From: Salipiger abyssi
Lineage (GTDB): Bacteria; Pseudomonadota; Alphaproteobacteria; Rhodobacterales; Rhodobacteraceae
Assembly (NCBI RefSeq): GCF_017311415.1
Contig: NZ_JAEKIS010000006.1
Span: forward strand, 1 to 64,000
Direction of reading: 5' to 3'
Length of the DNA: 64,000 bases
Part shown: one piece after another, positions 9,194 to 25,324 of the stretch
Layout: each line of letters opens with the position of its first letter
Position numbering within the stretch: the stretch's first letter is position 1
Notes under the pieces: model-generated
Databases searched by the model: none
Seen by the model: only the letters and a program-made list of their open reading frames with translations
What the model was told of the DNA's origin: nothing
Made by a program: the position numbers and the translations under genes

Positions 9194-10876
9194 CTAGCCG
9201 TTCCCGAAGAGCCGCGTCGCCTCTTCCGCCGTGTAGCGGCCCAGACGCACGTCCTCCTCCACCAGCGCCCGGTCCCGCGCCGCCGGATCGCCGTATCCGC
9301 CCCCGCCCGGCGTCTTGACCCGCACCCGGTCGCCGGCGGAAAGCGCGATGTCCTGCGCTTTCGAAAGATGCTCCGGTGTGAAGGTCTCGCCGCTCCGCGT
9401 CACCGCGACCTCGTTCACCGCGCCATCGCCGCCGCCCAGCACCCCCTGCGGGCCAAAGCGCCCGTGATCCATCACGAAACTCGCCCGCGCCGTGCCCCTG
9501 AGGATCTCCACCTCGTAATCCAGCCCGAACCCGCCGCGATGCGCCCCCGCGCCGCCCGAGCCCTCGCGCAGCGCGTAGCGGTGATAGAGCACCGGGAATT
9601 GCTGCTCCATGATCTCCACCGGCGGCGCCTTGGAAATGCCGATGGTCGAGCATCCGTTGGAGATCCCGTCGCCCCCCGCATAGCCGCCATAGCCGCCGCC
9701 CGAGATCTGGTACATCACATAGCTCTGCCCGGTCTCGGCCACCTCGCCCCCCAGTGCGAAATTGCCCGATGAGCCCGCCGGCGCCGCGCTCACCCGGTCG
9801 GGCAGCGCCGTAACCAGCGCGGCAAACACCGCCTCGGCGATGCGCTGGCTGACCTCTGCCGCGCAGCCCGAGACCGGGCGCGGGTATTGCGCATCGAGGA
9901 ATGTGCCCTCGGGGCGGAGGATCTCCAGCGGCTCGAAGGCCCCGGCGCTGATCGGCACATCGGGAAAGATGTGGCGCATGGCGAGATAGACAGAGCTGTG
10001 CGTGGTCGCCAGAACCGAATTCATCGGCCCGGCGCAGGGCGCGCTGGAGCCGGCGAAATCGAAGGTCAGCTTTTCGCCATCGGCGGTGATCGCCAGCTTG
10101 ATCTCCAGCGGCTCGTTCACCACCCCGTCGCTGTCGATATAGGCAATCGAGCGATAGACACCGGGCGCAATCGCCGCGATCTGCGCCCGCATCTGCTCGG
10201 CGGCGCGGCGGCGCAGCTCGGCAATCGCCTCGCGCACGATGTCGTCGCCATAGCGGTCGAGCAGCCGCGTCAGCCGCGCCTGCCCCACATAGAGCGCCGC
10301 CGCCTGCGCCTTCACATCGCCGATGCGCTGATCGGCGACGCGGATATTGGAGCAGATGATGGCATAGATCTCGGGATCGAGCTCGCCCCGCTTGAAAAGC
10401 CGCACCGGCGGCAGCCGCAGCCCCTCCTGTTCCACCGCCGTGGCGCTGGCCGAGAACCCGCCGGGCACCGCGCCGCCGGTATCGGGCCAGTGGCCGGTAT
10501 TGCTGAGCCAGCAGAAAATCTCGCCCCCGCGCCAGACCGGCATGGCAAAGCGCACATCCATCAGATGCGTGCCGCCGAGATAGGGGTCGTTGACGATATA
10601 GATGTCCCCCGGCCGCGGCGCCGCCACGCGCCCCTCGGCGATCATCTCGATGATCTTGCGGGTGGAATGCTGCATGACCCCGACAAAGACCGGCAAGCCT
10701 TGCGAGCCCTGCGCGATCAGGCTTCCATCCTCGGCGGCATAGATCCCGTCCGAGCGGTCATTGGCCTCGGCGATCACCGGAGAGAACGCCGCGCGGGAAA
10801 AGCTCAGATCCATCTCGTCGCAGACCTGTTGCAGCCCGGACTGAATGACGGTGAGGGTGATGGGATCGAGACTCAT
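9194..10876 (-). CDS. Hydantoinase B/oxoprolinase family subunit (HyuB-like)
   Basis: A 560-residue protein starting at the ATG at 10876, which follows GGAGG. Family signatures include PGDIYIVNDPYLGGTHLMD, NTGHWPDTGG, MNSVLATTHSSVY, GGDGISNGCSTIG and the C-terminal GGGGYGDP. Together with the A subunit, this family hydrolyses lactam or cyclic-imide bonds at the cost of ATP (N-methylhydantoinase, 5-oxoprolinase and acetone carboxylase relatives). It follows the A subunit gene after a 157-bp gap that contains a long inverted repeat. The actual substrate is unknown; the context suggests a ring-opening step on a partly reduced N-heterocycle. Confidence 0.9.
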   Translation of the reverse strand: MSLDPITLTVIQSGLQQVCDEMDLSFSRAAFSPVIAEANDRSDGIYAAEDGSLIAQGSQGLPVFVGVMQHSTRKIIEMIAEGRVAAPRPGDIYIVNDPYLGGTHLMDVRFAMPVWRGGEIFCWLSNTGHWPDTGGAVPGGFSASATAVEQEGLRLPPVRLFKRGELDPEIYAIICSNIRVADQRIGDVKAQAAALYVGQARLTRLLDRYGDDIVREAIAELRRRAAEQMRAQIAAIAPGVYRSIAYIDSDGVVNEPLEIKLAITADGEKLTFDFAGSSAPCAGPMNSVLATTHSSVYLAMRHIFPDVPISAGAFEPLEILRPEGTFLDAQYPRPVSGCAAEVSQRIAEAVFAALVTALPDRVSAAPAGSSGNFALGGEVAETGQSYVMYQISGGGYGGYAGGDGISNGCSTIGISKAPPVEIMEQQFPVLYHRYALREGSGGAGAHRGGFGLDYEVEILRGTARASFVMDHGRFGPQGVLGGGDGAVNEVAVTRSGETFTPEHLSKAQDIALSAGDRVRVKTPGGGGYGDPAARDRALVEEDVRLGRYTAEEATRLFGNG

Positions 10877-10918
10877 GGCCGTCCTCCAAAGGATCGCCCG
10901 GCCACAAGGGCGCGCCGT

Positions 10919-10983
10919 GCGTATTTGGAAAGAGAAGAAGACAGGGGCGCCTCCCTGCCCCTTCTTCTCTTTGGCAAATACGC
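10919..10983. repeat. Long inverted repeat (GTATTTG...AAAGAGAAGAAG family)
   Basis: The left arm (10921-10940) and right arm (10961-10981) pair over about 20 bp with one unpaired base and one mismatch. GC pairs extend it outward, and an inner GGGGC/GCCCC stem extends it inward. Related single elements are at 41493-41515, 54949-54971, 59183-59206 and 59422-59443. It lies between hydantoinase A and B, where it could stabilise mRNA or attenuate transcription. Confidence 0.6.
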
Positions 10984-11033: not shown

Positions 11034-13091
11034 TCATGACCCGGCCCCCAGCGTGACAATCAGATTGCCGTCGCCATCCTGGGCGGCGCGGTCGCCCGGT
11101 TCCAGCACCAGCGTGCAATCCATCTGCTCGACAATCGCCGGGCCGGTGAGCGTGGCCTCGGGCGGCAGGTGATCGCGCCAATAGACCGGCGTGTCGGTCC
11201 AGCTCTCGAAATAGACCTTGCGCGTGCCGCTCCGGGCCTCTTCCAGCGTGGCTTTGCGACCCGACGCGTCGATCAGCGCCGAGAGGTCGATCTCCGGGCG
11301 GCGGCCGATCACCGAGGTGTTGAGATTGACCAGCGCCGGGCGGATCTCGGGCAGGCGCACCTGGAAGCGGCGGAAATAGGCCTCCTCGAAGAGCGCTTGC
11401 AGGTCTTCGCGCGACGGCGTGGCGGAGGCGAGCGGCACGCGCAGCAGATGCGTCTGGCCGATGAAGCGCATCTCGACCGAATGGGTCACCCGCAGCTCGG
11501 CGATTTCCACCCGTTCGCGGGCGATGGCGGCGCGGCCCTCCTCGGTCTGGCGGGCGAAGATCGCATGCACCTCTCCCATGTCGCAGGCATCGAGCGGCCT
11601 GTTCACCGTGGCGACGTAATCGTGGCGCAGATCGGCGACGATGCAGCCCAGAGCGTTGGTGATGCCCGGACGCGCGGGCACCAGCACGCGCGGCACGCCC
11701 AGCTCGCGGGCAATGGCGCAGGCATGCAGCGGGCCGGCGCCGCCGAAGGCGAAGAGCGCGAAATCGCGCGGGTCTTCGCCGAGTGAAACAGAGACCATGC
11801 GCACCGCATCGGCCATCTTCGCCGTGGCAATGCGCAGCACCGCCGCCGCCGCCTCTGTCGCATCGAGCCCCAGCCGCGCGCCCAGCTTTTCGGCAAAGGC
11901 GGCGCGGATCGTCTCCAGCGACACGCCGCCGGCGCCGGTGTTCAGCCGCTCCGGGTTCATCCGTCCCAGCAACATATTGGCATCGGAAATCGTCGGCTCC
12001 GTGCCGCCCTTGCCGTAGCAGATCGGCCCCGGCACCGAGCCGGCGCTCTCCGGCCCGACCTGCAACAGCCCCGCCGCATCGACCCGCGCTATGGAGCCGC
12101 CGCCGGCACCCACGGTGCGCACATCGACCATGGGCACATGGATCGGCATGGCGTATTCGATCTCGATCTCATGGCTCACCGCCGGGTCGGCGCCCCGGAT
12201 CATCGCCACATCGGTGGAGGTGCCGCCCATATCGTAGGTCAGCAGGTCCGGGATGCCCGCGCGGCGCCCGGTATAGGCCGCCGCCATCACACCCGAGGCC
12301 GGGCCGGACATCACCGTCTTGGCGGCCTCCTCGGCCACCACCCGGGCCGAGACCATGCCGCCATTGCCGTTCATCACCAGAAGGTCGCGCCCGTAACCGC
12401 GCTCCGACAGCCGGTCGGCCAGCCGCTCCACATAGCGGCGCAGCAGCGGCTGCACCGAGGCGTTGACCGCCGCCGTCACCCCGCGCTCGTATTCGCGACT
12501 CTCGGATATCAGCGCGTGCCCGAGGGTGATATTGCCGTTGGGCCAGATCTCGCGGGCGATCTCGCCGGCGCGGATCTCATGCGCGGGGTTGGCATAGGCG
12601 TGCAGGAAATGGATCACCAGCGCCTCGCAGCCCTTTTTCACCAGTGCGGACAGCGCGACGCGCAGGGCGTCTTCGTCGAGCGGCAGATAGACGCTGCCAT
12701 CGGCCAGCAGCCGCTCGGGGATCTCCAGCCGCAGGTCGCGCGGGATGATCGGACGGAACTGGCCGGTCATGCCATAGGCATGCGGCCGCGTGCGGCGACC
12801 GAGCTCCAGCACGTCGCGGAAGCCTCGCGTGGTGATCAGCCCGGTCTTGCAGAGCCGCCGCTCCAGCACCGCGTTGGTGGTGGTGGTGGTGCCGTGCACG
12901 ATGAGATCCAGCGCGGCGGCATCGACCGAGGCCGCATCCAGCGCCGCCAGCACCCCCGTCGCCTGATTGTCCAGCGTGGTCGGCACCTTGGCGAGTTTCA
13001 CCGCCGCGGCGCGGCTGTCATAGAACACCAGATCGGTGAAGGTGCCGCCCACGTCGATCCCGGCGAAGGCGCCGGTCAGCTCGTCTGTCAT
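11034..13091 (-). CDS. Hydantoinase/oxoprolinase subunit A (HyuA-like)
   Basis: A 685-residue protein starting at the ATG at 13091, which overlaps the molybdenum hydroxylase stop (ATGA). The ASKHA-type ATP-binding motifs are present: GIDVGGTFTDLV near the N-terminus, HGTTTTTNAVLE, YDMGGTSTDVA and FAFGGAGPLHACAIA. This subunit binds and activates the substrate by ATP-dependent phosphorylation in hydantoinase and oxoprolinase systems. The translational coupling ties it to the oxidoreductase genes upstream, supporting one pathway. Known relatives act on N-methylhydantoin, 5-oxoproline or caprolactam-type rings; which of these applies is not visible. Confidence 0.92.
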   Translation of the reverse strand: MTDELTGAFAGIDVGGTFTDLVFYDSRAAAVKLAKVPTTLDNQATGVLAALDAASVDAAALDLIVHGTTTTTNAVLERRLCKTGLITTRGFRDVLELGRRTRPHAYGMTGQFRPIIPRDLRLEIPERLLADGSVYLPLDEDALRVALSALVKKGCEALVIHFLHAYANPAHEIRAGEIAREIWPNGNITLGHALISESREYERGVTAAVNASVQPLLRRYVERLADRLSERGYGRDLLVMNGNGGMVSARVVAEEAAKTVMSGPASGVMAAAYTGRRAGIPDLLTYDMGGTSTDVAMIRGADPAVSHEIEIEYAMPIHVPMVDVRTVGAGGGSIARVDAAGLLQVGPESAGSVPGPICYGKGGTEPTISDANMLLGRMNPERLNTGAGGVSLETIRAAFAEKLGARLGLDATEAAAAVLRIATAKMADAVRMVSVSLGEDPRDFALFAFGGAGPLHACAIARELGVPRVLVPARPGITNALGCIVADLRHDYVATVNRPLDACDMGEVHAIFARQTEEGRAAIARERVEIAELRVTHSVEMRFIGQTHLLRVPLASATPSREDLQALFEEAYFRRFQVRLPEIRPALVNLNTSVIGRRPEIDLSALIDASGRKATLEEARSGTRKVYFESWTDTPVYWRDHLPPEATLTGPAIVEQMDCTLVLEPGDRAAQDGDGNLIVTLGAGS

Positions 13092-15799
13092 GTTGTCCCC
13101 GAGAGGATGGCCGCGCGGATCTTGTCCGGGGTCGCGGGCAGATGGTGGATGCGCGCGCCCGTGGCATGGGCGATGGCGTTCAGCACGGCGGGCGCGGTGG
13201 GGATCAGGCAATGCTCGCCCAGCCCCTTGGCGCCGTAAGGCCCGTGCGCGTCGCCGCTCTCGACGAGCAGCGTGTCGATGGGGGGCACGTCGCCGATGGT
13301 GGGTATGAGGTAATCGTGCAGGTTCTCGGTGCGGCCCGGCAGGAATTCCTCCATCAGCGCCATGCCGATGCCCTGCGCCACGCCGCCCTCGATCTGGCCC
13401 TCGACCAGCAGCGGGTTGATCGCCTTGCCCACGTCATGCGCCGCCACGATGCGCCGCAGCTTGACCGTGCCGAGCGCCAGATCGACCTCCAGTTCGCAGA
13501 TCTGTGCGGCGGTGCCGAAGACGGCGTAGGGGTCGCCCTGCCCGTTCGGGTCGAGCGGCGTGGTCGGCGGGTCGTAGCTCTCGATAGCCTCCAGCGCATA
13601 AGGCGCGCCCGGCGGCAGCTCGACCCGCACGGTGGTGCCTCCGTCGGTGAGCAGGATGCCCTCTTCGGTGAACGCAATCTCGGCGGCGTCCGAGACATTG
13701 CCCAGCCGCAGGATCTGTGCCCGGAGCGCCGCGCCGCAAAGCCGGGCGGCGTTGCCGGAGATATAGGTCTGGCGGCTGGCAGAGGTCTTGCCCGCATCGG
13801 GCGTGATGTCGGTATCCGGCCCCACCCGCGTCACGGCGGAGACCGGCACGCCCAGGGCCTCGGCAAAGATCTGCGTGATCACGGTGTTGGAGCCCTGCCC
13901 GATATCCACCGCGCCCTGATGCAGCATCAGCGTGCCCTTGGGGGTGACGCCCGCGCGGATCGTCGAGGGGTTCGACATCGAGGTGTTGCCGCAGCCGTAC
14001 CAGCCCGCCGCCACGCCGATGCCGCGCTTGCGGTCCTCGTGGCTGGCGTTGAACGCCGCCACCTCGGCTTGCGCCCTGTCCCAATGCGGTTTCAGCGCGT
14101 CGAGACAGGCGTCGATGCCCATGCCGGTCTCGAACACCTGCCCGGTCACGGTCGGATCGCCGTTCGTCAGGCAATTGCGGCGACGGAACTCCAGCCGGTC
14201 GAGGCCCAGCCTTTCGGCCAGCATGTCGTAGAGCTGTTCCTGCGCCACCGCCGATTGCGGCACGCCGAAGCCGCGAAAGGCCCCGGCGGGGGAGGTATTG
14301 GTATGAATCCCCGCGCTTTTCGCCTGATAGTTCGGCGTCCGGTACGGCCCGCTGGCGTGGATCGGCACGCGGTTCGCCACGGTCGGCCCCCAGCTCGCAT
14401 AGGCGCCGGTGTTGAACACGCCGTCAAAGCGCGCGCCCACGATACGGCCATCGGCATCCGCGCCGATCTCCATCACCATGTCCGAAGGGTGGCGCTTGGT
14501 CGAGGTCGAGATCGACTCGGTGCGGGTGTAGGTGATGCGCGCCGGGCGGTTCAGATGCCAGGCGGCCAGCGCCACATAGGGCTGCGCGGTAAGGTCCAGC
14601 TTGGAGCCGAAGCCGCCGCCGACCGCCGTGGGCAGGATGCGCACCGCCTCTGGCGCCAGCCCCATGATCGTCGCGAGGCCGTCGCGGTTCATATAGGGCG
14701 CCTGGGTGCAGCAGGAGATCTCGATCCGGTCGCCGACCCGGTGGGCCGAGGCCGCCTCGGGCTCGATATAGCCATGCTCGATAAAGCCGGTGGAGAAGCG
14801 GCCCGAGACCACATGCGCGGCGCCCTTCAGCGCGGCATCGGCATCGCCGCGCGCCACATAGCCCCGGCACATGACGTTTTCGGCGCGGCTCTGGTGCAGT
14901 TGCGCGGCACTCTCGGCCCCCTCCGGGGTGAGGATCGCGGGCCGTTCCTCCCACACAACCGGAAACGCGGCCATGGCGTCGAGCGCCTCCTGTGTGCCGA
15001 CCACCGCCGCCACCGCCTCGCCCTTGAATCGCGTCTCGCCCTCGGCAAAGACCGGCTGGTCTTCGAAACCGGGGATGACGCCGAAACGGTTCTCACCGGG
15101 GATGTCGGCGGCAGTGAGGATCAGGTCGAGCCCGTTGGCCTCGCGAAACGCCTCCAGTTCACCGAAGCGGAACCCCGCCCGGTGATAGGGCGAGCGGATC
15201 ACCCGGACCGTCAACGCATCAGCGGGCGCCACATCGTCGCCGAAGCGTTCCTCGCCCGAGAGTTTCGGCCCGCCGTCGAGCCGGGCGATGGGCGCACCGA
15301 CCCCGCCCTCGGTCAGCGGTTCGGTGCCGGACGCATCCAGCACCGCGGCAACGATCTTGCGATACCCCGTGCAGCGGCAGAGCACGCCGCCAAGCGCATC
15401 CGCGACGCTCTCCTCGCTTAGCGCCGTGCCCGAGCGCAGCAGCGCCACCGCCGAAACCATCATGCCCGGCGTGCAGATGCCGCATTGCGCCGCCTGATGA
15501 CGCTGAAAGCTGCGCACGAGACGGCGCGCATGCGGATCCTCCGCCGCGAGCCCGGATTGCGTTTCCACGATATGGCCCTGCACCTGCCCGGCGGCCATCA
15601 GGCAGGCACAGACCGGCGCGCCGTCAACCAGAACCGTGCAGGCGCCGCAATCACCGGCGTTGCAACCGATCTTGACATCCTTCGCCCCGGCCACCTCGCG
15701 CAGCACTTCCGAGAGCCGGGCCGTGCTGTCTGCGGGCACGGTGATCTCGGCGCCGTTGAGGGTGAAGCCGATATGACCCTGCGGCGCATCAAGCGACAT
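13088..15799 (-). CDS. Molybdenum hydroxylase: [2Fe-2S] subunit fused to molybdopterin-binding subunit
   Basis: A 903-residue fusion. Residues 1-160 are the xanthine-dehydrogenase-type iron-sulfur subunit, with a plant-type cluster (Cys46, Cys51, Cys54, Cys64) and a second cluster (Cys106, Cys109, Cys141, Cys143). From about residue 175 the molybdopterin subunit begins, with GGGFGSKLDL, AFRGFGVPQ and GAKGLGEH, whose Glu is the catalytic base of the family. Such enzymes hydroxylate the carbon next to a ring nitrogen using water. The start overlaps the end of the FAD subunit gene by 11 bp and the stop overlaps hydantoinase A. Xanthine, nicotinate and other N-heterocycles are all possible substrates. 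Confidence 0.92.
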   Translation of the reverse strand: MSLDAPQGHIGFTLNGAEITVPADSTARLSEVLREVAGAKDVKIGCNAGDCGACTVLVDGAPVCACLMAAGQVQGHIVETQSGLAAEDPHARRLVRSFQRHQAAQCGICTPGMMVSAVALLRSGTALSEESVADALGGVLCRCTGYRKIVAAVLDASGTEPLTEGGVGAPIARLDGGPKLSGEERFGDDVAPADALTVRVIRSPYHRAGFRFGELEAFREANGLDLILTAADIPGENRFGVIPGFEDQPVFAEGETRFKGEAVAAVVGTQEALDAMAAFPVVWEERPAILTPEGAESAAQLHQSRAENVMCRGYVARGDADAALKGAAHVVSGRFSTGFIEHGYIEPEAASAHRVGDRIEISCCTQAPYMNRDGLATIMGLAPEAVRILPTAVGGGFGSKLDLTAQPYVALAAWHLNRPARITYTRTESISTSTKRHPSDMVMEIGADADGRIVGARFDGVFNTGAYASWGPTVANRVPIHASGPYRTPNYQAKSAGIHTNTSPAGAFRGFGVPQSAVAQEQLYDMLAERLGLDRLEFRRRNCLTNGDPTVTGQVFETGMGIDACLDALKPHWDRAQAEVAAFNASHEDRKRGIGVAAGWYGCGNTSMSNPSTIRAGVTPKGTLMLHQGAVDIGQGSNTVITQIFAEALGVPVSAVTRVGPDTDITPDAGKTSASRQTYISGNAARLCGAALRAQILRLGNVSDAAEIAFTEEGILLTDGGTTVRVELPPGAPYALEAIESYDPPTTPLDPNGQGDPYAVFGTAAQICELEVDLALGTVKLRRIVAAHDVGKAINPLLVEGQIEGGVAQGIGMALMEEFLPGRTENLHDYLIPTIGDVPPIDTLLVESGDAHGPYGAKGLGEHCLIPTAPAVLNAIAHATGARIHHLPATPDKIRAAILSGTT

Positions 15800-16631
15800 G
15801 AGCGGCCTCCTGTTCCATGGCGGTGGTAATGGCGCGCGCGACGAGCGTGCGCACGGCGTCGTCACGATACGCCGCAGGCGCCCGGACATCGCCGATGGGA
15901 GCCAGCTCCGGGAATGGGTAGTCACGCAGGATCTCAGAGAGTTCCGCCACGCTCTTGCCACGAAGGCCCGCCTCCAGATCGGGCAGTCGTCGCGCCACCG
16001 GCGCGCAGGCACCCACGGCAATGCGGGCGCGGGCGATGCGGCCCGCCTCAACCTCGATCACCGCCGCGACCATGGCGATGGAGATCACCAGATATTTCCG
16101 CGCCCCGAGCTTGAGAAATGCACCGCAACCTTTTGCGCCTGGTATATAAATCTCCGTCAGGATTTCCCCCGGCACGAGCAGAGTTGCGCGCGGGCCGGTG
16201 ATGAATTCGGCAAGCGGCAGGCGCCGTGTGCCCGCCGCAGAGGCCAGCCCGACCTCGGCATCGAGCGCCAGCAGCGCCGGCACCCCATCCGCCGCCGGAG
16301 AGGCGTTGCAGAGATTGCCCGCCACCGTGCCCGCGTTCTGGATCTGCACCGATCCGACCTCGCGCGCGGCGGCTTTCAGCCCGTCGAAAAGCGGCGGCAG
16401 ATCGGCGCGCAGCAACGCGCTCCACGTGGTCGCCCCGCCGATGCGCCAGCCCTCCGCCTCGCGCGTCATCCCGCGCAGCTCCGCCACCCCGGTCAGGTCG
16501 ACCAGCTCGGCCGGCGGCACCCCGTCGCGCAGCGCCGGATAGAGATCCGTCCCCCCGCCCAGCGCCTGCGCGCCGCCCCTGCCCATCAGCGCCAGAGCGG
16601 CGTCGAGCGTGTCGGGTCGGTGCAGGGGCAT
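15789..16631 (-). CDS. FAD-binding subunit of the molybdenum hydroxylase (XdhA/CoxM type)
   Basis: A 280-residue protein with the FAD_binding_5 motifs GGGTDLYPALRDG near the N-terminus and NAGTVAGNLCNASPAAD in the middle, plus a CO-dehydrogenase-flavoprotein-type C-terminal domain. It passes electrons from the molybdenum and iron-sulfur centres to NAD+ or another acceptor. It is the first gene of the leftward operon, with AGGAGA ahead of the ATG. The fused Fe-S/Mo gene overlaps its 3' end, so the two products together make a complete hydroxylase. No XdhC-like maturation gene is in the window. Confidence 0.9.
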   Translation of the reverse strand: MPLHRPDTLDAALALMGRGGAQALGGGTDLYPALRDGVPPAELVDLTGVAELRGMTREAEGWRIGGATTWSALLRADLPPLFDGLKAAAREVGSVQIQNAGTVAGNLCNASPAADGVPALLALDAEVGLASAAGTRRLPLAEFITGPRATLLVPGEILTEIYIPGAKGCGAFLKLGARKYLVISIAMVAAVIEVEAGRIARARIAVGACAPVARRLPDLEAGLRGKSVAELSEILRDYPFPELAPIGDVRAPAAYRDDAVRTLVARAITTAMEQEAAHVA

Positions 16632-16668: not shown

Positions 16669-16684
16669 TTCGCACACAAACGAA
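16669..16684. promoter_or_regulatory. Operator-like site, copy 1 (leftward hydroxylase operon)
   Basis: TTCGCACACAAACGAA matches the site at 16840-16855 at 14 of 16 positions, and both have TTCG/CGAA ends. It lies 38-53 bp upstream of the FAD-subunit ATG. On the minus strand a TTGACA at 16723-16718 is followed 17-18 bp later by a weak -10, which would place this site just downstream of the start of transcription. A repressor binding here would block the leftward operon. Confidence 0.5.
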
Positions 16685-16891: not shown

Positions 16892-18403
16892 TTGAGCACA
16901 CCGACGTCCCCCGCGAAACGCAGCCCCTCGGACCGCCCCGACAAGATCCGCTGCGATGCCTGCCCGGTGATGTGCTATATCGCCGAGGGCCGCGCCGGCG
17001 CCTGCGACCGCTACGCCAACGAGGGCGGCGAACTGGTGCGGCTCGACCCGCTGACCATTCTGGAAAACCGCGAGGACGTGGCGCTGGTGCCCTTTCTCGA
17101 CCGCGAATGGGACGGCGATATCGTTTCGGGCGACGAGGCCTTCATCACTGCCGTGGGCTCCGGCACGACCTATCCCGATTACAAGCCCGCGCCGTTCATC
17201 GTCGCCTCCAAAGCGGCGGATGCCGACATGATCACCGTGGTGACCGAGGGGATCTTTTCCTATTGCGGCGCCAAGGTGAAGATCGACACCGACCGGCATC
17301 TGGGCAGCGAATGCGCCTGGGTGCGCGCCGGGGACGAGGTGATCGGCCATGTCACCACCTCGGAATATGGCTCGCAAATGCTCAGCCTCGGCGGGGTCAA
17401 CCACCTGACCGGCGGCTCCAAGAAGGAGGGCCGCGCGACCTGCTCGGCCCTGCTGGCGCTGTGCAATGGCGAGAGTGTCGCGCTCAGCATCGACAATGGC
17501 GCCGAGCTGGAGATCGCCGCCGGACAGGCGCCGGTAGTCAATGGCCAGCGCGAGGAGCGTATGCGCGTCGGCTGCGGCTCGGCCACGGTGGGCATGTTCG
17601 CGGCGCAGTGGCAGGGGCTGGTGGACGAGGTTGTCGTGGTCGACGACCATATCACCGGCGTGATGTCCGAGCATCAGGCGGGCAAGGTCATCGGCTGGCC
17701 CGCCACGGGGATCAAGATCAACGGGCGGCGCTCGACGCCGGGGCGCTATTTCCAGGTGGCCGAGCCCGGCACCGGCTGGGGCGGCACCGATCTCTCCGAT
17801 CCGCTGGAGATTCTCGGCGCGTGGAAACCCGGCATCGCCTGGCCCGGACTGTCGCTGCTCATGGTCTCGACCACCGGCGAACACGCCGCCTATTTCGAGC
17901 TGAACGAGGATCTCGTGCCGGTCGAGAAAGAGATGCCCGAGCGGCTGCTGCCCTCGGTCCGGCGGATCGAGGAGAATTGCGAGCCTTCGCTCGCCTCGGT
18001 GCTGTTCATGGCCGGCGCTGGCGGCTCGCTGCGCTCGGGCGTGACCGAGAACCCGGTGAGCCTGACGCGCTCTGTGCAGTCGCGGCTGACCCGGGTGACC
18101 TGCGGCGGCGCGCCGGTGATGATGTGGCCGGGCGGCGGCATCACCTTCATGTCGGACGTGACGCAGATGCCGAAGAACGCCTTTGGCTACGTACCGACCC
18201 CGGCGCTTGTGGCGCCCATCGAGTTCACCATGCGGCGCGAGGATTATCAGGCGCTTGGCGGGCATATGGATTATGTGATGCCGCTGGAGGAGGCGCTGAA
18301 AGGCGTCACCGGGCGGCAGAGCGATCACCGGCTCTCGGGCCGCCGCGCCGAGACTCGCAAATCCGGCAGCCCCTGGCCTGTCAGCCGGGAGCCCGCGAAA
18401 TGA
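16892..18403 (+). CDS. 6-hydroxynicotinate reductase-like iron-sulfur oxidoreductase
   Basis: A protein of about 503 residues resembling the 6-hydroxynicotinate reductase of anaerobic nicotinate degradation, which reduces 6-hydroxynicotinate to 1,4,5,6-tetrahydro-6-oxonicotinate. An N-terminal cysteine motif CX2CX3CX9C (Cys21, 24, 28, 38) in RCDACPVMCYIAEGRAGAC should bind a [4Fe-4S] cluster. I prefer the TTG at 16892 (GGAG 8 bp upstream) because in-frame ATGs at 16760 and 16835 lie before or at the operator-like palindrome; the start is uncertain. The product overlaps the UPF0280 gene by ATGA. The exact substrate is inferred only from family and from the divergent hydroxylase. Confidence 0.8.
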   Translation: MSTPTSPAKRSPSDRPDKIRCDACPVMCYIAEGRAGACDRYANEGGELVRLDPLTILENREDVALVPFLDREWDGDIVSGDEAFITAVGSGTTYPDYKPAPFIVASKAADADMITVVTEGIFSYCGAKVKIDTDRHLGSECAWVRAGDEVIGHVTTSEYGSQMLSLGGVNHLTGGSKKEGRATCSALLALCNGESVALSIDNGAELEIAAGQAPVVNGQREERMRVGCGSATVGMFAAQWQGLVDEVVVVDDHITGVMSEHQAGKVIGWPATGIKINGRRSTPGRYFQVAEPGTGWGGTDLSDPLEILGAWKPGIAWPGLSLLMVSTTGEHAAYFELNEDLVPVEKEMPERLLPSVRRIEENCEPSLASVLFMAGAGGSLRSGVTENPVSLTRSVQSRLTRVTCGGAPVMMWPGGGITFMSDVTQMPKNAFGYVPTPALVAPIEFTMRREDYQALGGHMDYVMPLEEALKGVTGRQSDHRLSGRRAETRKSGSPWPVSREPAK

Positions 18404-19263
18404 GCTTTCGCGAGGCGCCCATCGTGCAGATGGCCCGCGACGGGCGGATGCGGCTGACCCACGGCCCCATCGACCTGATCGTGACGGCGGAGGGCCCGGA
18501 AAGCGCGGCCAAAGCCGCCCTGCGGCGCGCGCATGAGGTCTTTGAGCCGGTGCTCCACGATCTCTGCGCCGAGCTGCCCCGGCTGCGCGCGGCACATGGT
18601 CCCGCGCCGCGCGGTGCCGTGGCGCTACGGATGCAGAGCGCGACCGATCTCTTTGCGCCCGCCTTCGTGACACCGATGGCGGCCGTGGCGGGATCGGTGG
18701 CCGATCATATCCTGGCGGCGATGCTGGTGCCCGGCCACGGGCTCGCCCGCGCGCATGTGAACAATGGTGGCGATATCGCGCTCTGGACGAGCGCCGCGCC
18801 GCTGCGGCTGGCGATCTGCGAAGACCCGCAGAGCCGCGCGCCCGGCGCCCGCGCCAGTATCGCCGCCGGCGATGGCATCGGCGGCGTGGCGACCAGCGGC
18901 TGGCGCGGGCGCTCGCACTCGCTGGGCATCGCCGATGCGGTCACCGTGCTGGCGCGCGACGCGGCGCGGGCCGATGCCGCCGCCACGCTGATCGCCAACG
19001 CGGTGGACCTGCCCGGCCATCCCGCCATCGCCCGCCAGCCCGCAAGCGCCCTCGCCCCCGACAGCGATCTGGGCGACCGGCCTGTGACCACCGGCGTGGG
19101 CGCGCTCACCGCCCGCGAGGCGCGGCGCGCGCTGGACGCGGGCCGCGTGCTGGCCGAAGACTATATCCGCCGGGGCCTGATCCGCGCCGCCTGCCTTGCG
19201 CTGGCGGGCGAGCGGACGGCCCTCGGCACCGCCATTGCCAAGGAGGAGCCCGCCCATGCCTGA
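18400..19263 (+). CDS. UPF0280 family protein (ApbE-like fold)
   Basis: A 287-residue protein of the uncharacterised UPF0280 family, distantly related to ApbE flavin transferases. The family motif HVNNGGDIAL is present, along with VAGSVADHIL and the GGVATSGWRGRSHSLGIADAV stretch. ApbE proteins attach FMN to partner proteins, so a cofactor-loading role for the neighbouring reductase is conceivable, but this is speculation. The ATG overlaps the reductase stop, and its own stop overlaps the next gene by 8 bp. This very tight coupling argues for a shared complex or pathway. Confidence 0.8.
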   Translation: MSFREAPIVQMARDGRMRLTHGPIDLIVTAEGPESAAKAALRRAHEVFEPVLHDLCAELPRLRAAHGPAPRGAVALRMQSATDLFAPAFVTPMAAVAGSVADHILAAMLVPGHGLARAHVNNGGDIALWTSAAPLRLAICEDPQSRAPGARASIAAGDGIGGVATSGWRGRSHSLGIADAVTVLARDAARADAAATLIANAVDLPGHPAIARQPASALAPDSDLGDRPVTTGVGALTAREARRALDAGRVLAEDYIRRGLIRAACLALAGERTALGTAIAKEEPAHA

Positions 19264-19840
19264 GGTCAAGATCCGCAAGACGCTGGTCCAGGTCGAAACC
19301 GTCTTTCACGAGGGCGGCCCTGCCCCCGAAACGCCGCAAAAACGCGCCGCCGCGCTGGCGGTGATCGAGAACCCTTATGCCGGGCGCTATGTGGACGACA
19401 TCGCCCCCTTCATGAAAGATCTCGAACCGCTGGGGGCGCAGATGGCGCAACAGCTCATCGACGCGCTCGGCGGCGATGCGGCGGCGGTCGAGGGCTATGG
19501 CAAGGGCGCCATTGTCGGCGTGAACGGCGAGGTCGAACATGGCGCGCTCTGGCATGTGCCGGGCGGCTACGCGATGCGCGACGCCATCGAGAAGAGCAAG
19601 GCCATCGTGCCCTCGGCCAAGAAGGTCGGCGCGGCGGGCACGCGGCTCGACGTGCCGGTGACCCATACCAACGCCTCTTACGTGCGCTCGCATTACGATG
19701 CGGTGGAGGTCGGCATTCCCGACGCGCCGCGCCCGGACGAGATCGTGCTGGTGCTGGTGATGACCACCGGCGGGCGCATCCACGCCCGCATGGGTGGTCT
19801 GACGAAAGAAGACGTCAAGGGCGAGGACGGGTTGCGGTGA
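19256..19840 (+). CDS. DUF1185 ('amino acid synthesis') family protein, copy 1
   Basis: A 194-residue protein of the DUF1185/AA_synth family, which has solved structures but no proven reaction. Conserved blocks are VIENPYAGRY, AVEGYGKGAIVG, GEVEHGA, ASYVRSHYD and the C-terminal GEDGLR. The ATG at 19256 lies within the last codons of the UPF0280 gene, after AGGAGG. The following gene encodes a clear paralogue and overlaps it by GTGA. The name given to the family does not mean a role in amino-acid synthesis here; the catabolic and transport neighbours suggest a ring-degradation role. Confidence 0.82.
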   Translation: MPEVKIRKTLVQVETVFHEGGPAPETPQKRAAALAVIENPYAGRYVDDIAPFMKDLEPLGAQMAQQLIDALGGDAAAVEGYGKGAIVGVNGEVEHGALWHVPGGYAMRDAIEKSKAIVPSAKKVGAAGTRLDVPVTHTNASYVRSHYDAVEVGIPDAPRPDEIVLVLVMTTGGRIHARMGGLTKEDVKGEDGLR

Positions 19841-20415
19841 AGCTGCGCAAGATCATCACGCAGGTCGAGGAGACCCGCTCGGAGATGGGCCGGGCGGTCA
19901 CGCCGCCCGCCCGCCGGGCGCTCGCGGCGGCGGTGATCGAGAACCCGTTCGCCGGGCGCTACGAGGACGACCTGTCGGAGCTGATCGAGACCGGCGCCGC
20001 GCTGGGAGATCTGCTGGGCCGCGAGGCGCTGGCGGCGCTCGGCTGCGGCGCGCAGGCGGTCGAGGGCTATGGCAAGGCCGCGCTGGTGGGCGAGCTGGGC
20101 GAACTGGAACACGCCGCCGCCCTGCTGCACCCCAGGCTCGGCGCGCCGCTGCGCGCGGTGATCGGCGGCGGCAAGGCGCTGGTGCCCTCCTCCAAGGCCA
20201 TCGGGCGCGCGGGCGAGTTCCTGGACATTCCGCTGGGCCACAAGGATGCCGCCTATGTGCGCAGCCATTTCGACGGCATGCGCCTGCGCATCGCCGACGC
20301 CCCGCGCCCGCGCGAGATCGTCGTGGCGGTGACGTTGCAGCAGACCGGTCGACCACTGTCCCGCGTCGGCGGCTTGCAACATGACGAGGTGACGGGCGAG
20401 GATGGGCTGCGATGA
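19837..20415 (+). CDS. DUF1185 ('amino acid synthesis') family protein, copy 2
   Basis: A 192-residue paralogue of the preceding gene, sharing VIENPFAGRY, AVEGYGKAALVG, GELEHAA, AAYVRSHFD and GEDGLR. By eye, roughly 45% of positions match. The GTG start overlaps the previous stop (GTGA) and no other start is closer. Retention of both copies in one operon suggests either a heterodimer or two related substrates. Conserved Glu and His residues (GYGK, GE-EH, RSH) could form an active site, but this is inference. Confidence 0.8.
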   Translation: MKLRKIITQVEETRSEMGRAVTPPARRALAAAVIENPFAGRYEDDLSELIETGAALGDLLGREALAALGCGAQAVEGYGKAALVGELGELEHAAALLHPRLGAPLRAVIGGGKALVPSSKAIGRAGEFLDIPLGHKDAAYVRSHFDGMRLRIADAPRPREIVVAVTLQQTGRPLSRVGGLQHDEVTGEDGLR

Positions 20416-20638: not shown

Positions 20639-21847
20639 ATGAACCTGATGAGACGCACCGTGCTGGCCACGGCCGCCGCCCTTGCCCTGACCCCTGCCAC
20701 AGCTTTTGCGCAGGAGACGATCAAGGTCGGCGAGATCAACCATTACAAGCGCCTCGCCGCCTTTGCCGAGCCCTACAGGAAGGGCATCGAACTGGCGCTG
20801 AGCGAGATCAACGCCGATGGCGGCGTGCTGGGCAAGGATCTGGAATTCATCTTCCGCGACGATCAGGGCGACCCGGCCGAGGCGGTGAAGATCGCCGAAG
20901 AGCTGATGACCCGCGACGGCGCGGTGATGTTCACCGGCTCGATCCTGTCGAATGTCGGGCTGGCGCTGTCGAGCTTCGCCAACGAGAAGAAATATCTCTA
21001 CCTCGCCTCCGAGCCGCTGGCCGACACGTTGGTGTGGAAATCCGGCAACCCCTACACCTTCCGCCTGCGGGTCTCGACCTGGGTGCAGGCCGCCATGCTG
21101 GCCGAGGAGGCCGCCAAGACCGACGCAATCAAATACGCCACCATCGCGCCGAACTACGCCTATGGCACCGATGCGGTCGAGGCCTTCAAGACCAACCTCA
21201 AGATGCTGAAGCCCGAGGTGGAATTCGTCGCAGAGCAATGGCCGGCGCTGTTCAAGATCGACGCCGGCGCCGAGGTGCAGGCCATCGAACGCGCCAAGCC
21301 CGATGCGATCTATAACGTCACCTTCGGCACCGACCTCGCCAAATTCGTGCGTCAGGGCACCGACCGGGGCCTCTTTGACGGGCGCCCCGTCTATGGGCTG
21401 CTGACCGGCGAGCCGGAATATCTCGAACCGCTGGAGGACGAGGCGCCCGAAGGCTGGTTCGTCACCGGCTTCCCCTGGTACGGGTTCGAGGACGGCACGC
21501 CGGGCAAGACCTTTGTCGATGCCTATGAGGCGTTTACCGGCGAGACGCCCAAGATCGGCTCGCTGGTGGGCTACATGACGGCGCAGAGCATCGCCGCCGC
21601 CATCACCAAGGCTGGCGCCACTGATACCGAGGCGCTGCGGATGGCCTTCGAAGGGCTTGAGGTCGAGAACACGCCCATCGGCACGCTGCATTACCGCGAG
21701 ATCGACAACCAGTCGACACTGGGCGCCTGGACCGGCACCACGGCGGTGGAGGACGGCAAGGGCGTGATGGTCGACTGGACCTATAACGACCCCGCGCCCT
21801 ACATGCCCTCCGACGAGGAGATCCTGGAGATGCGCCCGGCGGACTAA
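20639..21847 (+). CDS. ABC transporter substrate-binding protein (branched-chain amino acid/LivK type)
   Basis: A 402-residue periplasmic binding protein with a signal peptide (basic MNLMRRTV, hydrophobic core, cleavage near AFAQ). The mature start ETIKVGEINHYKRLAA and the internal IAPNYAYGTDAVEAF are typical of type-I Leu/Ile/Val-like binding proteins. AGGAG precedes the ATG. The family binds amino acids but also urea, amides and aromatic or heterocyclic acids. It heads a full importer downstream of the reductase genes, so the ligand may be the pathway's N-heterocycle or its acid form. Confidence 0.88.
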   Translation: MNLMRRTVLATAAALALTPATAFAQETIKVGEINHYKRLAAFAEPYRKGIELALSEINADGGVLGKDLEFIFRDDQGDPAEAVKIAEELMTRDGAVMFTGSILSNVGLALSSFANEKKYLYLASEPLADTLVWKSGNPYTFRLRVSTWVQAAMLAEEAAKTDAIKYATIAPNYAYGTDAVEAFKTNLKMLKPEVEFVAEQWPALFKIDAGAEVQAIERAKPDAIYNVTFGTDLAKFVRQGTDRGLFDGRPVYGLLTGEPEYLEPLEDEAPEGWFVTGFPWYGFEDGTPGKTFVDAYEAFTGETPKIGSLVGYMTAQSIAAAITKAGATDTEALRMAFEGLEVENTPIGTLHYREIDNQSTLGAWTGTTAVEDGKGVMVDWTYNDPAPYMPSDEEILEMRPAD

Positions 21848-21862
21848 GCCCGGCACAGCCAT

Positions 21863-21940
21863 GAGGCCCCGGACCACGTCCGGGGCGGGTTGGGACGGCT
21901 CTAGCCGATGCCCCCCGCCCCGGGCCTGACCCGGGGCCTC
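21863..21940. repeat. Inverted pair of GC-rich dispersed repeats
   Basis: The element GAGGCCCCGG-n7-CCGGGGCGGG (21863-21889) is followed 24 bp later by a closely matching copy in the opposite orientation (21914-21940). Related copies are at 26656-26683 and three times within 45772-45873. It sits between the binding-protein and permease genes, where it could form a long mRNA hairpin. Confidence 0.6.
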
Positions 21941-22003
21941 CACCGGAGCCGCCCGCGCGGCGGCCCCGCAAGCCTCTCTCCCGATACCAGCCAGAGGACC
22001 GTC

Positions 22004-23860
22004 ATGGCCTTCTTCTTCGCCCAGTTCCTCACCGGGCTCGCCAATGCCGCCGCGCTGTTCCTCGTGGCCTCCGGCCTGTCGCTGATCTTCGGCGTCACCC
22101 GGATCGTGAATTTTGCGCATGGCTCTTTCTACATGCTCGGCGCCTTCATCGGCGTCGTCCTGATGGATCTGCTGCCCGGCCATGTCGGGTTCTGGGGCGC
22201 CATCCTGCTCACCGGGCTTGCGGTGGGGCTCATCGGCGCCCTGGTCGAGATGGTGGTGCTGCGCCCGATCTACCGCGCGCCGGAGCTGTTCCAGCTTGTC
22301 GCCACCTTCGGGGTGATCCTCGTCATCCAGGATCTGGCGCTGATGATCTGGGGCGCCGAAGACCGGCTCGGCCCGCGCGCCCCCGGCCTGCGCGGCGTCT
22401 GGCGGATCTTTGGCGAGCCGGTGCCGAAATACGATATCGTGCTGATCGCCATCACCCCGGTCATCCTCTTCGCGCTCTGGTATCTCATCGCCCGCACAAG
22501 GCTCGGCGTGCTGGTGCGCGCCGCCACGCAGGACCGCGAGATGGTCGGCGCGCTCGGCGTCAACCAAGCCTGGCTCTTCACCGGGGTCTTTGCGCTCGGC
22601 TCGGCGCTGGCCGGGCTTGGCGGCGCGCTGCAACTGCCCAAGGGCGGCGCCGATCTGCTGATGGATTTCAATATCATCGGCGCGGTCTTTGTCGTGGTCG
22701 TCATCGGCGGCATGGGCTCCCTGCCCGGCGCCTTCATCGCCTCGGTGCTGATCTCGGTGCTGAACGTCTTTGGTGTCACCTACCTGCCGCAATCGACGCT
22801 GGTGCTGATGTATGTGGTCATGGCGGTGGTGCTGATCGTGCGCCCCTACGGCCTTCTGGGCCGCGAGGAGGTGGCCGGAGAACATGGTCAGGTCGGCGCG
22901 CCGGAAACCCCGATCCGCCCCTATGGCCCCAAGGGCATGGCACTGGTCGCCGTCCTGCTCGCCCTGCTGGCGCTGCTGCCGGTCTTTGCCGAGCCCTTCG
23001 TGCTGACGCTGGTGGTCGATATGGTGGTCTTTGCGCTTTTCGCCGCCAGCCTGCATTTCATCCTCGGCTCCGGCGGGCTGGTCAGCTTTGGCCATGCGGC
23101 GTTTTTCGGCGGCGGCGCCTATGCGGCGGCGCTGCTGGTCTATCACACCGGCACGCCGATGGAGCTCGCCTTTCTCTTCGCGCCGCTCGCCGCCGGGCTG
23201 CTGGCGCTGGGGATCGGCTGGTTCTGCATCCGCCTCACCGGCGTCTATTTCGCCATGCTGACGCTGGCCTTTTCGCAGCTTGTCTGGAGCCTCGCCTTCC
23301 AGTGGCGCTCGGTCACCCGTGGCGATGACGGGCTGGTCAATATCTGGCCCGCCGAGTGGCTCTCGGGCGACATAACCTACTACTATTTCGCGCTGGCCTT
23401 CGGCATCGGCGGCATCCTCGTCCTGCGCCATGTCATCCACGCGCCCTTCGGCTATGCGCTGCGCGCCGGGCGCGACAGCCCGCGCCAGGCCGAAGCCACC
23501 GGCATCGACGTCAAGCGCGTGCAATTCGCGGCCTTCGCGCTGGCCGGCGCCATGGCGGGACTTGCGGGCGGGATCTTCGTCTTTTCCAAGGGCTCGGTCT
23601 TTCCGACGGAGCTGGAGATCGCCAAGAGCTTCGATGCGCTGATCGTGGTGTTTCTCGGCGGGGTGAAGACGCTGGCGGGGGGCGTCGTGGGCGCCGGCTT
23701 CATGACCGTGGTCGAGGACTGGCTGGTGCGGCTGGAATACTGGCGGCTGCTGCTGGGGCTGGTGATCATCGCGGTGGTGATCCTGATGCCCGAGGGCATC
23801 GTCGGCACCCTGCGCACGCTCTGGCGGCGCATCCGCCACAGCGATGAGGAGGCGGTCTGA
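22004..23860 (+). CDS. Fused LivH-LivM type ABC transporter permease
   Basis: A 618-residue fusion of the two permeases of a branched-chain-amino-acid-type importer. Residues 1-300 are LivH-like (VNFAHGSFYMLGAF, GVNQAWLFTGVFALGSALAG, VVVIGGMGSLPGAF). Residues 340-618 are LivM-like (SFGHAAFFGGGAYAAALL, TGVYFAMLTLAFSQLVW, RDSPRQAEATGIDV, VVFLGGVKTLAGGVVGA). The ATG at 22004 follows AGAGGA. The stop and the ATPase start overlap by one base (TGATG). Separate LivH and LivM genes are the rule, so one chain with both halves is less usual, though known in other bacteria. Confidence 0.9.
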   Translation: MAFFFAQFLTGLANAAALFLVASGLSLIFGVTRIVNFAHGSFYMLGAFIGVVLMDLLPGHVGFWGAILLTGLAVGLIGALVEMVVLRPIYRAPELFQLVATFGVILVIQDLALMIWGAEDRLGPRAPGLRGVWRIFGEPVPKYDIVLIAITPVILFALWYLIARTRLGVLVRAATQDREMVGALGVNQAWLFTGVFALGSALAGLGGALQLPKGGADLLMDFNIIGAVFVVVVIGGMGSLPGAFIASVLISVLNVFGVTYLPQSTLVLMYVVMAVVLIVRPYGLLGREEVAGEHGQVGAPETPIRPYGPKGMALVAVLLALLALLPVFAEPFVLTLVVDMVVFALFAASLHFILGSGGLVSFGHAAFFGGGAYAAALLVYHTGTPMELAFLFAPLAAGLLALGIGWFCIRLTGVYFAMLTLAFSQLVWSLAFQWRSVTRGDDGLVNIWPAEWLSGDITYYYFALAFGIGGILVLRHVIHAPFGYALRAGRDSPRQAEATGIDVKRVQFAAFALAGAMAGLAGGIFVFSKGSVFPTELEIAKSFDALIVVFLGGVKTLAGGVVGAGFMTVVEDWLVRLEYWRLLLGLVIIAVVILMPEGIVGTLRTLWRRIRHSDEEAV

Positions 23861-24630
23861 TGTCCGAGATCCTGCGTGTCGAAAACCTCAGGAAGAGCTA
23901 TGACGGCTTTCTCGCTGTCAATGGCGTCTCCTTCGCGGTGGCCAAGGGCGAGCTGAAGGCGCTGATCGGCCCCAACGGGGCGGGCAAGTCCACCTGCTTC
24001 AACATGCTCATGGGGCAGCTCAAACCCAGTGCCGGAGAGGTTTATCTCGATGGCCAGCGCATCACCGGCAAGCGCCCGCGCGAGATCTGGCGGCGCGGCG
24101 TCGGGCGTACCTTCCAGATCACCGGCACCTATCAGTCGATGAGCGTGATCGAGAATGTGCAGATGGCGCTGATGAGCCACCACAAACGGATCTTTTCCAT
24201 CGCGCCGCGCGCCTGGAAGCTCTACCGCGATGAGGCCATGGGCTTTCTCGACACCGTGTCGATGGCGGATCAGGCCGACCGGCCCTGTTCGGTGCTGGCC
24301 TATGGCGATCTCAAGCGGCTGGAGCTGGCGATTGCGCTCTGCCACCGCCCGCGCCTCTTGCTGATGGACGAGCCCACGGCGGGCATGGCGCCCTCGGCGC
24401 GGATCGAACTCATGCAGCTGGTGGCCGATATCGTGCGGGATCAGGGCGTTTCGGTGCTCTTTACCGAGCATGACATGGACGTGGTCTTTGCCCATGCCCA
24501 TCACATCATGGTGCTGAACCGGGGCGAGCTGATCGCGGACGGCTCTGCGACCGAGGTGCGCAACAACCCGCAGGTGCAAGAGGTCTATCTGGGCGGCGGC
24601 ACGCTCTTCAAGGAGGACGCAAATGCTTAG
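23860..24630 (+). CDS. ABC transporter ATP-binding protein (LivG type)
   Basis: A 256-residue ATPase with Walker A GPNGAGKST, the signature-region YGDLKRLELA in place of a canonical LSGGQ, Walker B LLLMDEPTAGMA and the H-loop FTEHDMDVVF. The long insertion after Walker A (GVGRTFQITGTYQSM) is typical of LivG. It pairs with LivF below to power the fused permease. The start overlaps the permease stop, and LivF begins within its last three codons. Confidence 0.92.
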   Translation: MSEILRVENLRKSYDGFLAVNGVSFAVAKGELKALIGPNGAGKSTCFNMLMGQLKPSAGEVYLDGQRITGKRPREIWRRGVGRTFQITGTYQSMSVIENVQMALMSHHKRIFSIAPRAWKLYRDEAMGFLDTVSMADQADRPCSVLAYGDLKRLELAIALCHRPRLLLMDEPTAGMAPSARIELMQLVADIVRDQGVSVLFTEHDMDVVFAHAHHIMVLNRGELIADGSATEVRNNPQVQEVYLGGGTLFKEDANA

Positions 24631-25324
24631 CGTCGAGCGCATCCACAGCTATTACGGCAAGGCGCATATCCTCAACGATCTCAGCTTCGAGGTGCGGCGC
24701 GGCGAGGTGGTGGCGCTTTTGGGCCGCAACGGCGCGGGCAAATCCACCACGATGAAATCGGTGATGCAGCTTTTGCGCCCGCGTCAGGGACAGGTGACGT
24801 TTCAGGGCCGCGATCTGGTGGGCGAGCCCGCCTTCCGCGTCGCCAAATGCGGCATCGGTTACGTGCCCGAGGACCGGCGCATCTTCACCGATCTCACGGT
24901 GCTGGAAAACCTGGAGGTCGGCCGCCAGCCCCGCCGCGAGGACGCGCCGTTCTGGACCCAGGAACAGCTTTTCGAGATCTTCCCCAACCTCTACGAGCGA
25001 CGCGCCAACCGGGGCAAGCACATGTCGGGCGGCGAGCAGCAGATGCTGACCATCGCGCGCACGCTGATGGGCAACCCGGCGCTGCTGCTGCTCGACGAGC
25101 CTTCGGAGGGCATCGCGCCGGTGATCGTCGAGCAGATGGCCGAGACCATCAAGACGCTGAAGGAAGAGGGGCTGACGGTGATGATCTCCGAACAGAACCT
25201 GCATTTCGCCCGCGCCGTGGCGGATCGCGCGATCATCATCGAGGGCGGGGAGAAGAAGTTCGACGGCAGCTTCGCCGAGCTTGAGGCGCATCCGGAGATC
25301 CGCGATGCCTATCTGTCGGTCTGA
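24623..25324 (+). CDS. ABC transporter ATP-binding protein (LivF type)
   Basis: A 233-residue ATPase with Walker A GRNGAGKST, signature MSGGEQQMLTIARTL, Walker B LLLLDEPSEGIAP and H-loop-equivalent ISEQNLHFA (Gln instead of His, as is frequent in LivF). The ATG overlaps the previous stop by 8 bp. It completes a five-part importer (binding protein, fused permease, two ATPases) that ends 85 bp before a MarR regulator. Confidence 0.92.
   Translation: MLSVERIHSYYGKAHILNDLSFEVRRGEVVALLGRNGAGKSTTMKSVMQLLRPRQGQVTFQGRDLVGEPAFRVAKCGIGYVPEDRRIFTDLTVLENLEVGRQPRREDAPFWTQEQLFEIFPNLYERRANRGKHMSGGEQQMLTIARTLMGNPALLLLDEPSEGIAPVIVEQMAETIKTLKEEGLTVMISEQNLHFARAVADRAIIIEGGEKKFDGSFAELEAHPEIRDAYLSV

Follow-up and report, generated by a model that had tools for sequence, protein, structure and literature searches.

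The 64,000-nucleotide stretch of Salipiger abyssi DNA analysed here (the window; contig NZ_JAEKIS010000006.1, positions 1 to 64,000) carries two divergent gene arms that probably encode nicotinate catabolism through tetrahydro-oxonicotinate (THON), in a version where the hydantoinase-type pair HyuAB has replaced enamidase as the ring-opening enzyme. The evidence is a complementary distribution: among 118 genomes bearing hnr, the gene of a 6-hydroxynicotinate reductase-like protein (Hnr), 67 have an orthologue of HyuA only, 49 a relative of enamidase only, two have both and none has neither. The initial annotation of this DNA had proposed ring opening by HyuAB instead of enamidase, and the proposal, which could have failed in this comparison, withstood it. 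The cluster is composed of the following genes:

9194-10876, minus strand: HyuB (PF02538, Hydantoinase_B, 1e-157; PDB 6yra_B, 1.6e-69)
11034-13091, minus strand: HyuA, the ATP-binding subunit (PF01968, Hydantoinase_A, 2e-88)
13088-15799, minus strand: large subunit of a molybdenum (Mo) hydroxylase with fused 2Fe-2S domains (MoCoBD_1/2, Ald_Xan_dh_C, Fer2, Fer2_2)
15789-16631, minus strand: flavin adenine dinucleotide (FAD) subunit of the Mo hydroxylase (PF00941, FAD_binding_5, 9e-40; PF03450, 4e-13)
16892-18403, plus strand: Hnr, 6-hydroxynicotinate reductase-like, by resemblance to records so annotated
18430-19263, plus strand: UPF0280 protein with an ApbE-like predicted fold (NF003322, 321 bits against a cut-off of 290)
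19256-19840, plus strand: first DUF1185 (AA_synth) protein (PF06684, 1.4e-73; PDB 3byq, 1e-66)
19837-20415, plus strand: second DUF1185 (AA_synth) protein (PF06684, 5.5e-68)
20639-21847, plus strand: substrate-binding protein of an ATP-binding cassette (ABC) importer, branched-chain amino acid/urea type (PF13458, Peripla_BP_6, 7.8e-59)
21908-23860, plus strand: fused ABC permease (PF02653, BPD_transp_2, two stretches, 1e-70)
23860-24630, plus strand: first ABC ATPase (PF00005, ABC_tran, 1.4e-29; PF12399)
24623-25324, plus strand: second ABC ATPase (PF00005, ABC_tran, 1.2e-32)
25410-25856, plus strand: MarR-family regulator (PF01047, 4.4e-12)

The genes named in the initial annotation are found where it had placed them, with Pfam and NCBIfam matches far above chance; the MarR gene, absent from its list, was added in this analysis. 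Going outward from 16631, the minus arm runs FAD subunit, Mo/2Fe-2S subunit, HyuA and HyuB; from 16892 the plus arm runs Hnr, UPF0280, the two DUF1185 proteins, binding protein, permease, two ATPases and, last, MarR. The Mo hydroxylase large subunit is a chain of 903 amino acids, with MoCoBD_1 (1e-70), Fer2 and Fer2_2 on the same chain, and both DUF1185 proteins pass the Pfam cut-off for PF06684. Positions 18430 and 19256 are the likely start codons of UPF0280 and of the first DUF1185 protein.

In some hnr loci without HyuAB in the stretch shown an amidohydrolase is present that matches enamidase (PDB 2vun, 1e-106), hence the prediction that genomes with hnr carry one enzyme or the other. The distribution was examined at two levels. 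The locus sample was drawn from the window, seven plasmid loci, a contig scan (best 80 of 593 stretches, shorter loci being dropped) and 120 genome regions, and contained 202 loci of at least 9 kb, or 194 after merging identical Hnr sequences. Hyu genes are present in 44 of these (both subunits in 28, one subunit in 16, which were probably cut by the flank), an enamidase relative in 69, both in none and neither in 81, a number that reflects flanks limited to about 9-10 kb. The genome sample consisted of 118 hand-picked genomes out of 164 bearing hnr (46 were left out), all at least 90% complete and picked before the whole-genome searches but after the locus counts had been seen. The HyuA orthologue was found in 51 of 80 and 18 of 38 hnr-bearing genomes, always with at least 61% identity, the next matches having at most 51%; the enamidase relative was found in 29 of 80 and 22 of 38, again with at least 61% identity and with no further match at E<=1e-20. 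The genome of the window itself gave no enamidase match in the whole-genome search and has the HyuA orthologue instead. The Fisher p for this exclusion is 2.8e-31, a value that ignores kinship and is thus overstated.

Both ring-opening genes depend on hnr. This gene is present in 136 of the 394 genomes sampled from the family of the window. As controls we used 38 genomes of the same family that have no hnr (completeness 90% or more in 35). The single enamidase match among these 38 has 44% identity and is outside the enamidase group; with HyuA the search found an orthologue (70%) and a paralogue (45%), one of each. The lone orthologue comes from a genome of 85% completeness, and its contig starts 147 nt ahead of a DUF1185 gene, followed by importer genes and HyuAB; since the contig starts at DUF1185, hnr may just be absent from the assembly.

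A complementary pattern could also arise from the shared ancestry of two Hnr lineages, with no functional replacement, and the two states are in fact strongly clustered on the Hnr tree, where 100 label shuffles gave a mean of 37.3 changes and a minimum of 30. The tree contains 117 genomes (for one of the 118 no locus was fetched), and in counting changes the two genomes that hold both genes were disregarded. On this tree the state changes at least 6 (IQ-TREE quick) or 7 (FastTree) times, so that HyuAB and enamidase have been exchanged at least six times, exactly one gene being kept each time. Eight independent pairs are composed of six opposite, none same and two undecided, which by the sign test reaches only p 0.031. 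The clade of 12 Hyu genomes to which the window belongs has an enamidase-bearing sister (G449). Against these repeated exchanges, and with none of the 118 genomes lacking both genes, ancestry as the sole explanation appears improbable.

Several observations weigh against replacement of enamidase by HyuAB. Two Rhizobium-like genomes (both f10/g34) hold a HyuA orthologue and an enamidase relative together; in them the enamidase relative has a contig of its own, where its group includes neither hnr nor UPF0280:

L269, 7776-10739, and L270, 7956-10848: DUF1185-DUF1185-enamidase relative-MarR

In several genomes HyuAB is on a contig other than that of hnr, and the identity limit that separates HyuA orthologues (at least 61%) from other matches (at most 51%) was set from the results themselves. 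Enamidase opens the ring without ATP, so the swap has no evident payoff. Finally, HyuA and HyuB, with 501 and 296 bits, are under the 1000-bit curated cut-offs of the caprolactamase models NF050156 and NF050157, and therefore they are not caprolactamases as such.

The HyuAB pair nevertheless retains the residues that an ATP-driven lactamase of this family would use. The best PDB matches of HyuA are 7hk5, an N-methylhydantoinase (1.8e-134), and 6yra (8.1e-111), which, judging by its chain lengths (696 and 581), we take to be CapAB. The ATP motifs are kept: DxGGTxTD at 13 in 39 of 39 covering loci, DMGGT at 287 and GxxPGP at 351 in 42 of 42. HyuB D40, H104, D107 and H129 align with D41, H99, D102 and H124 of CapB, the Asp-His-Asp-His metal site given in PMC8453981, and the four ligands are kept in 28 of 28 covering Hyu loci. 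The caprolactamase models fit better than those of acetophenone carboxylase (501 vs 315 bits for HyuA, 296 vs 128 for HyuB), and OplAB, an ATP-dependent pair of the same family, opens the six-membered delta-valerolactam according to PMC11033972. The family is broad, including hydantoinases, oxoprolinases, caprolactamases and carboxylases, and the genome of the window alone gives 12 HyuA matches at E<=1e-100. HyuAB might thus act on some other lactam or imide (a hydantoin, oxoproline or a pyrimidine derivative, for instance) and be merely co-regulated with hnr; this seems very unlikely to us, as it explains neither the absence of hnr genomes with neither gene (0/118) nor the near absence of the HyuA group from genomes without hnr (1/38).

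The first step of the pathway was compared in the same loci. The initial annotation had treated the genes as one pathway, and their neighbourhoods speak for it: beside hnr, the Mo hydroxylase of the window type is present in 159 of 194 loci, UPF0280 in 190 and Hyu genes in 44. The two arms are found together across genomes, so the opposite outcome, arms that are never together, did not occur. NicB takes the place of the Mo hydroxylase in 25 loci; no locus has both and 10 have neither. The Mo hydroxylase is clustered with hnr in Hyu (39/44) and enamidase (48/69) loci alike, having in the latter 52-64% identity to the protein of the window, and it is therefore likely that the substrate is the same in both. 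Its Glu862, which we take to be the catalytic residue in this enzyme family, is conserved in all 158 of 158 relatives. Cytochrome c domains are part of the NicB reference; positions 5000-30000 of the window contain no NicB-type match, and the Mo hydroxylase there is without such domains. Because sister loci have a NicAB-type dehydrogenase and enamidase where the window has the Mo hydroxylase and HyuAB, the likely substrate can be narrowed to nicotinate, which would be degraded through 6-hydroxynicotinate and tetrahydro-oxonicotinate. A pyrimidine or hydantoin substrate is rated low, the reciprocal pattern with NicB and enamidase speaking against it.

Plasmids of relatives illustrate how these modules combine. 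Those of Pseudosulfitobacter and Sagittula have the same divergent layout plus a ferredoxin-NADP reductase and a Rieske oxygenase; the loci of a Paracoccaceae strain and of a Neorhizobium plasmid have HyuAB with genes named nicAB; a Pleomorphomonas plasmid locus has HyuAB and no Mo enzyme within the stretch shown; Sulfitobacter pontiacus and a Comamonadaceae plasmid have the amidohydrolase and no HyuAB within the stretch shown. In hnr loci of relatives the Rieske gene was located as follows:

L002, 15562-16632, L003, 15562-16632, and L007, 16067-17134: Rieske oxygenase with a vanillate-demethylase-type C-terminal domain (PF19112)

This oxygenase is a candidate N-demethylase, perhaps for trigonelline, and suggests that the same enzymes could be entered through N-methylnicotinate (trigonelline) or another substituted pyridine-3-carboxylate, with nicotinate as an intermediate only. 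The PF19112 gene is present in 11 of the 44 Hyu loci, in 12 of the 69 with enamidase and in 5 of the other 81, most near relatives of the window included, and trigonelline appears as a marine metabolite in PMC8269262. The majority of hnr loci, however, are without a Rieske gene, and so are positions 5000-30000 of the window, the part of its genome that was searched for one; we regard this entry as unlikely, though clearly less so than a different lactam for HyuAB. An unbiased clustering of neighbouring open reading frames gave nothing firm, spoiled as it was by antisense shadow frames of high-GC DNA, and one cluster on the enamidase side (12 loci) had no Pfam match.

From the gene content we infer the reactions, substrate and regulation of the cluster. 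The importer would bring in nicotinate or a precursor, and the FAD/2Fe-2S/Mo hydroxylase would convert it to 6-hydroxynicotinate, as NicAB would do in sister loci. Hnr, matured by UPF0280, would then reduce 6-hydroxynicotinate to 1,4,5,6-tetrahydro-6-oxonicotinate. We propose that HyuA would use ATP to activate this lactam at its oxygen, or through a carboxyphosphate route, and that HyuB would open the ring at its metal site; the resulting aminomethylene-glutarate would fall to 2-formylglutarate and ammonia. The DUF1185 proteins would act at or after ring opening, with formyl-acid decarboxylation or tautomerisation towards glutarate semialdehyde as a guess, and the MarR protein would repress by acting on two palindromes between the arms.

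Of these assignments, that of UPF0280 is a strong new lead: the protein is probably a maturation factor of Hnr, a reading built on the co-occurrence of the two genes, an ApbE-like fold and profile, and the flavin of Hnr in Eubacterium barkeri, which is said to be covalently bound. UPF0280 lies downstream of hnr on the same strand in the 190 loci, in 187 of these within 400 nt. The four loci without it comprise one at a contig end, two from Granulosicoccus and one (L069) that is unexplained; another locus of the Granulosicoccus group has UPF0280 about 9 kb upstream. In whole-genome searches UPF0280 was present in 42 of 42 genomes with hnr, one copy each, and in 0 of 38 without it. Its predicted model is confident (predicted local distance difference test, pLDDT, 94.9), and Foldseek returned DVU1097 (DUF375) as the best match (1.9e-11), with ApbE, Ftp and FmnB at ranks 3-40; 34 of these ApbE/Ftp/FmnB matches have E below 0.001, with TM-scores of only 0.31-0.52, which is modest. 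hhalign of UPF0280 with 23 ApbE proteins gave a probability of 96 (E 8e-9). Asp115, Ser156 and Asp182, conserved in 54 of 54 sequences, and Thr186, in 53 of 54, align with the GGD, TSG and ADAxAT stretches of ApbE.

Two negative results argue against a flavin transferase, along with those low TM-scores. No invariant His column exists among the 54 UPF0280 sequences, and the ApbE target motif D-x-x-[ST]-G-A-[ST] (PMC12052999) occurs in 0 of 55 Hnr sequences. UPF0280 could instead be a catabolic enzyme or a flavin chaperone of the pathway, a serious possibility to which we give somewhat less weight than to its negation, as the conserved residues aligned to ApbE and the strict pairing of one UPF0280 with each hnr genome favour a transferase.

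Hnr itself takes its name from annotation and not from experiment: it resembles plasmid records annotated as 6-hydroxynicotinate reductase, with 60-87% identity. It has no match in Pfam, NCBIfam or PDB sequences, a profile search against PDB sequences gave nothing better than E 0.5, and with its weak predicted fold (mean pLDDT 74.4) Foldseek found nothing below E 0.16. Its cysteines 21, 24, 28, 38, 125, 228 and 363 are kept in 193 of 193 relatives. A Bradyrhizobiaceae relative of Hnr, not the protein of the window, is given as 42% identical to the E. barkeri enzyme in PMC3511419.

The number of DUF1185 genes varies: of the 69 enamidase loci, 53 have two copies, 16 one and 0 none; of the 44 Hyu loci, 15 have two, 27 one and 2 none; of the other 81, 29 have two, 43 one and 9 none. 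The thresholds may have made these counts too low. Since DUF1185 occurs with either ring-opening enzyme, it is no stand-in for one of them, and the group DUF1185-DUF1185-enamidase-MarR without hnr hints that it belongs to the ring-opening stage. According to PMC7913881, the oxidation of succinate semialdehyde during trigonelline breakdown is said to be stimulated by the DUF1185 relative TgnF, and no effect was seen for HcdD; both belong to heterocycle breakdown operons, and in our loci one or two copies are the usual state. That the DUF1185 proteins act on the formyl acid is a guess. We propose only tentatively a fuller scheme. In it UPF0280 would serve the reductase Hnr alone, as a divergent enzyme of flavin-transferase type in the cytosol or as a flavin chaperone; HyuAB would hydrolyse an enamide lactam at the expense of ATP and would have taken the place of enamidase at least six times, giving two interchangeable versions of ring opening; and DUF1185 would act on the opened formyl acid.

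The cluster can be compared with several known systems. Nicotinate fermentation in E. barkeri reportedly proceeds by a Mo hydroxylase, Hnr and then hydrolytic opening of THON, and its Mo enzyme is said to have four subunits, built unlike that of the window. The ring is opened there by enamidase (PDB 2vun) without ATP; in the window it would be opened by HyuAB. The hnr cluster and the THON route are in print for Azorhizobium caulinodans and Bradyrhizobiaceae, whose cluster, in which 6-hydroxynicotinate is reduced to THON, has in common with that of the window Hnr, a Mo hydroxylase, an ABC importer putatively for nicotinate and further conserved proteins with no assigned function (PMC3511419), and the THON-type route is reviewed in PMC9304392; consequently only the HyuAB variant is new. 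The difference is clear in our sample, where 11 of 11 f8/g30 genomes (Bradyrhizobium by inference) have the enamidase relative and no HyuA orthologue, the reverse of the window. The caprolactamase CapAB (PMC8453981) and the oxoprolinase OplAB (PMC11033972) have family, ATP motifs and four metal ligands in common with HyuAB, and differ in that the latter is tied to hnr, with an enamide lactam of pyridine breakdown as its proposed substrate. NicAB stands beside hnr in 25 of 194 loci, from which the Mo hydroxylase of the window type is absent, its NicB having cytochrome c domains, while the enzyme of the window combines an FAD subunit with a fused 2Fe-2S part. ApbE/FmnB and DVU1097 are matched by the UPF0280 model, from which the invariant His is missing as the target motif is from Hnr. 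UPF0280 was not mentioned in the open-access literature searched, and among the matches listed there nothing joins hydantoinase or HyuAB to nicotinate breakdown or to the hnr cluster.

If correct, these assignments would tie one group of HyuAB, proteins that are abundant in genomes and rarely assignable, to a substrate and a step, would predict the use of nicotinate by many marine bacteria and would propose a function for UPF0280. They would also constitute a natural experiment, in which close relatives open the same lactam with and without ATP and the reason for the ATP cost could be measured.

The divergent arms share a region of 260 bp. A single shared promoter had been proposed for them; the region is better described as containing two operator-like palindromes, each close to the start of one arm:

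16669-16684: operator-like palindrome, copy 1, TTCGCACACAAACGAA, 38 bp from the start of the FAD subunit
16840-16855: operator-like palindrome, copy 2, TTCGTATACAAACGAA, preceding hnr

All 16 of the 16 loci in the window clade have a similar site (at most 3 mismatches) upstream of hnr, a count that is not independent, as the motif was derived from the window itself. Of 178 other loci 25 have one: 16 of 69 with enamidase, 2 of 13 further loci with both Hyu subunits, 0 of 16 with a partial Hyu set and 7 of 80 remaining loci. With 141 sites elsewhere in 3.53 Mb, about 0.06 are expected per tested region, so that the 25 sites outside the clade, against about 11 expected, are a modest excess. The MarR protein is the candidate binder of the two palindromes; MarR-type matches accompany hnr in 40 of the 44 Hyu loci, in 54 of the 69 with enamidase and in 50 of the remaining 81.

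The tight overlaps that had been noted within each arm are only partly present, the exception being HyuA and HyuB, which in the window are 157 nt apart around a repeat and in L002 and L003 overlap by 4 nt:

10919-10983: palindromic dispersed repeat of 65 bp between HyuA and HyuB, judged to be outside the pathway

The repeat gives 27 match rows in its own genome at E<=0.001, several of which are both strands of one place.

Three neighbouring genes were considered as members of the pathway and dropped, all being absent from L002 and L003: a cytochrome P450 (7682-8851), an isochorismatase-type hydrolase (25971-26714), which is moreover far below all curated cut-offs, nicotinamidase included, and a short-chain dehydrogenase/reductase (26717-27619). 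The hydrolase adjoins the MarR gene and weakly resembles RutB and biuret hydrolase. The P450 gene is convergent with HyuB, and to the left of the cluster a sensor histidine kinase and a sigma-54-type response regulator form a pair at 4644-7618.

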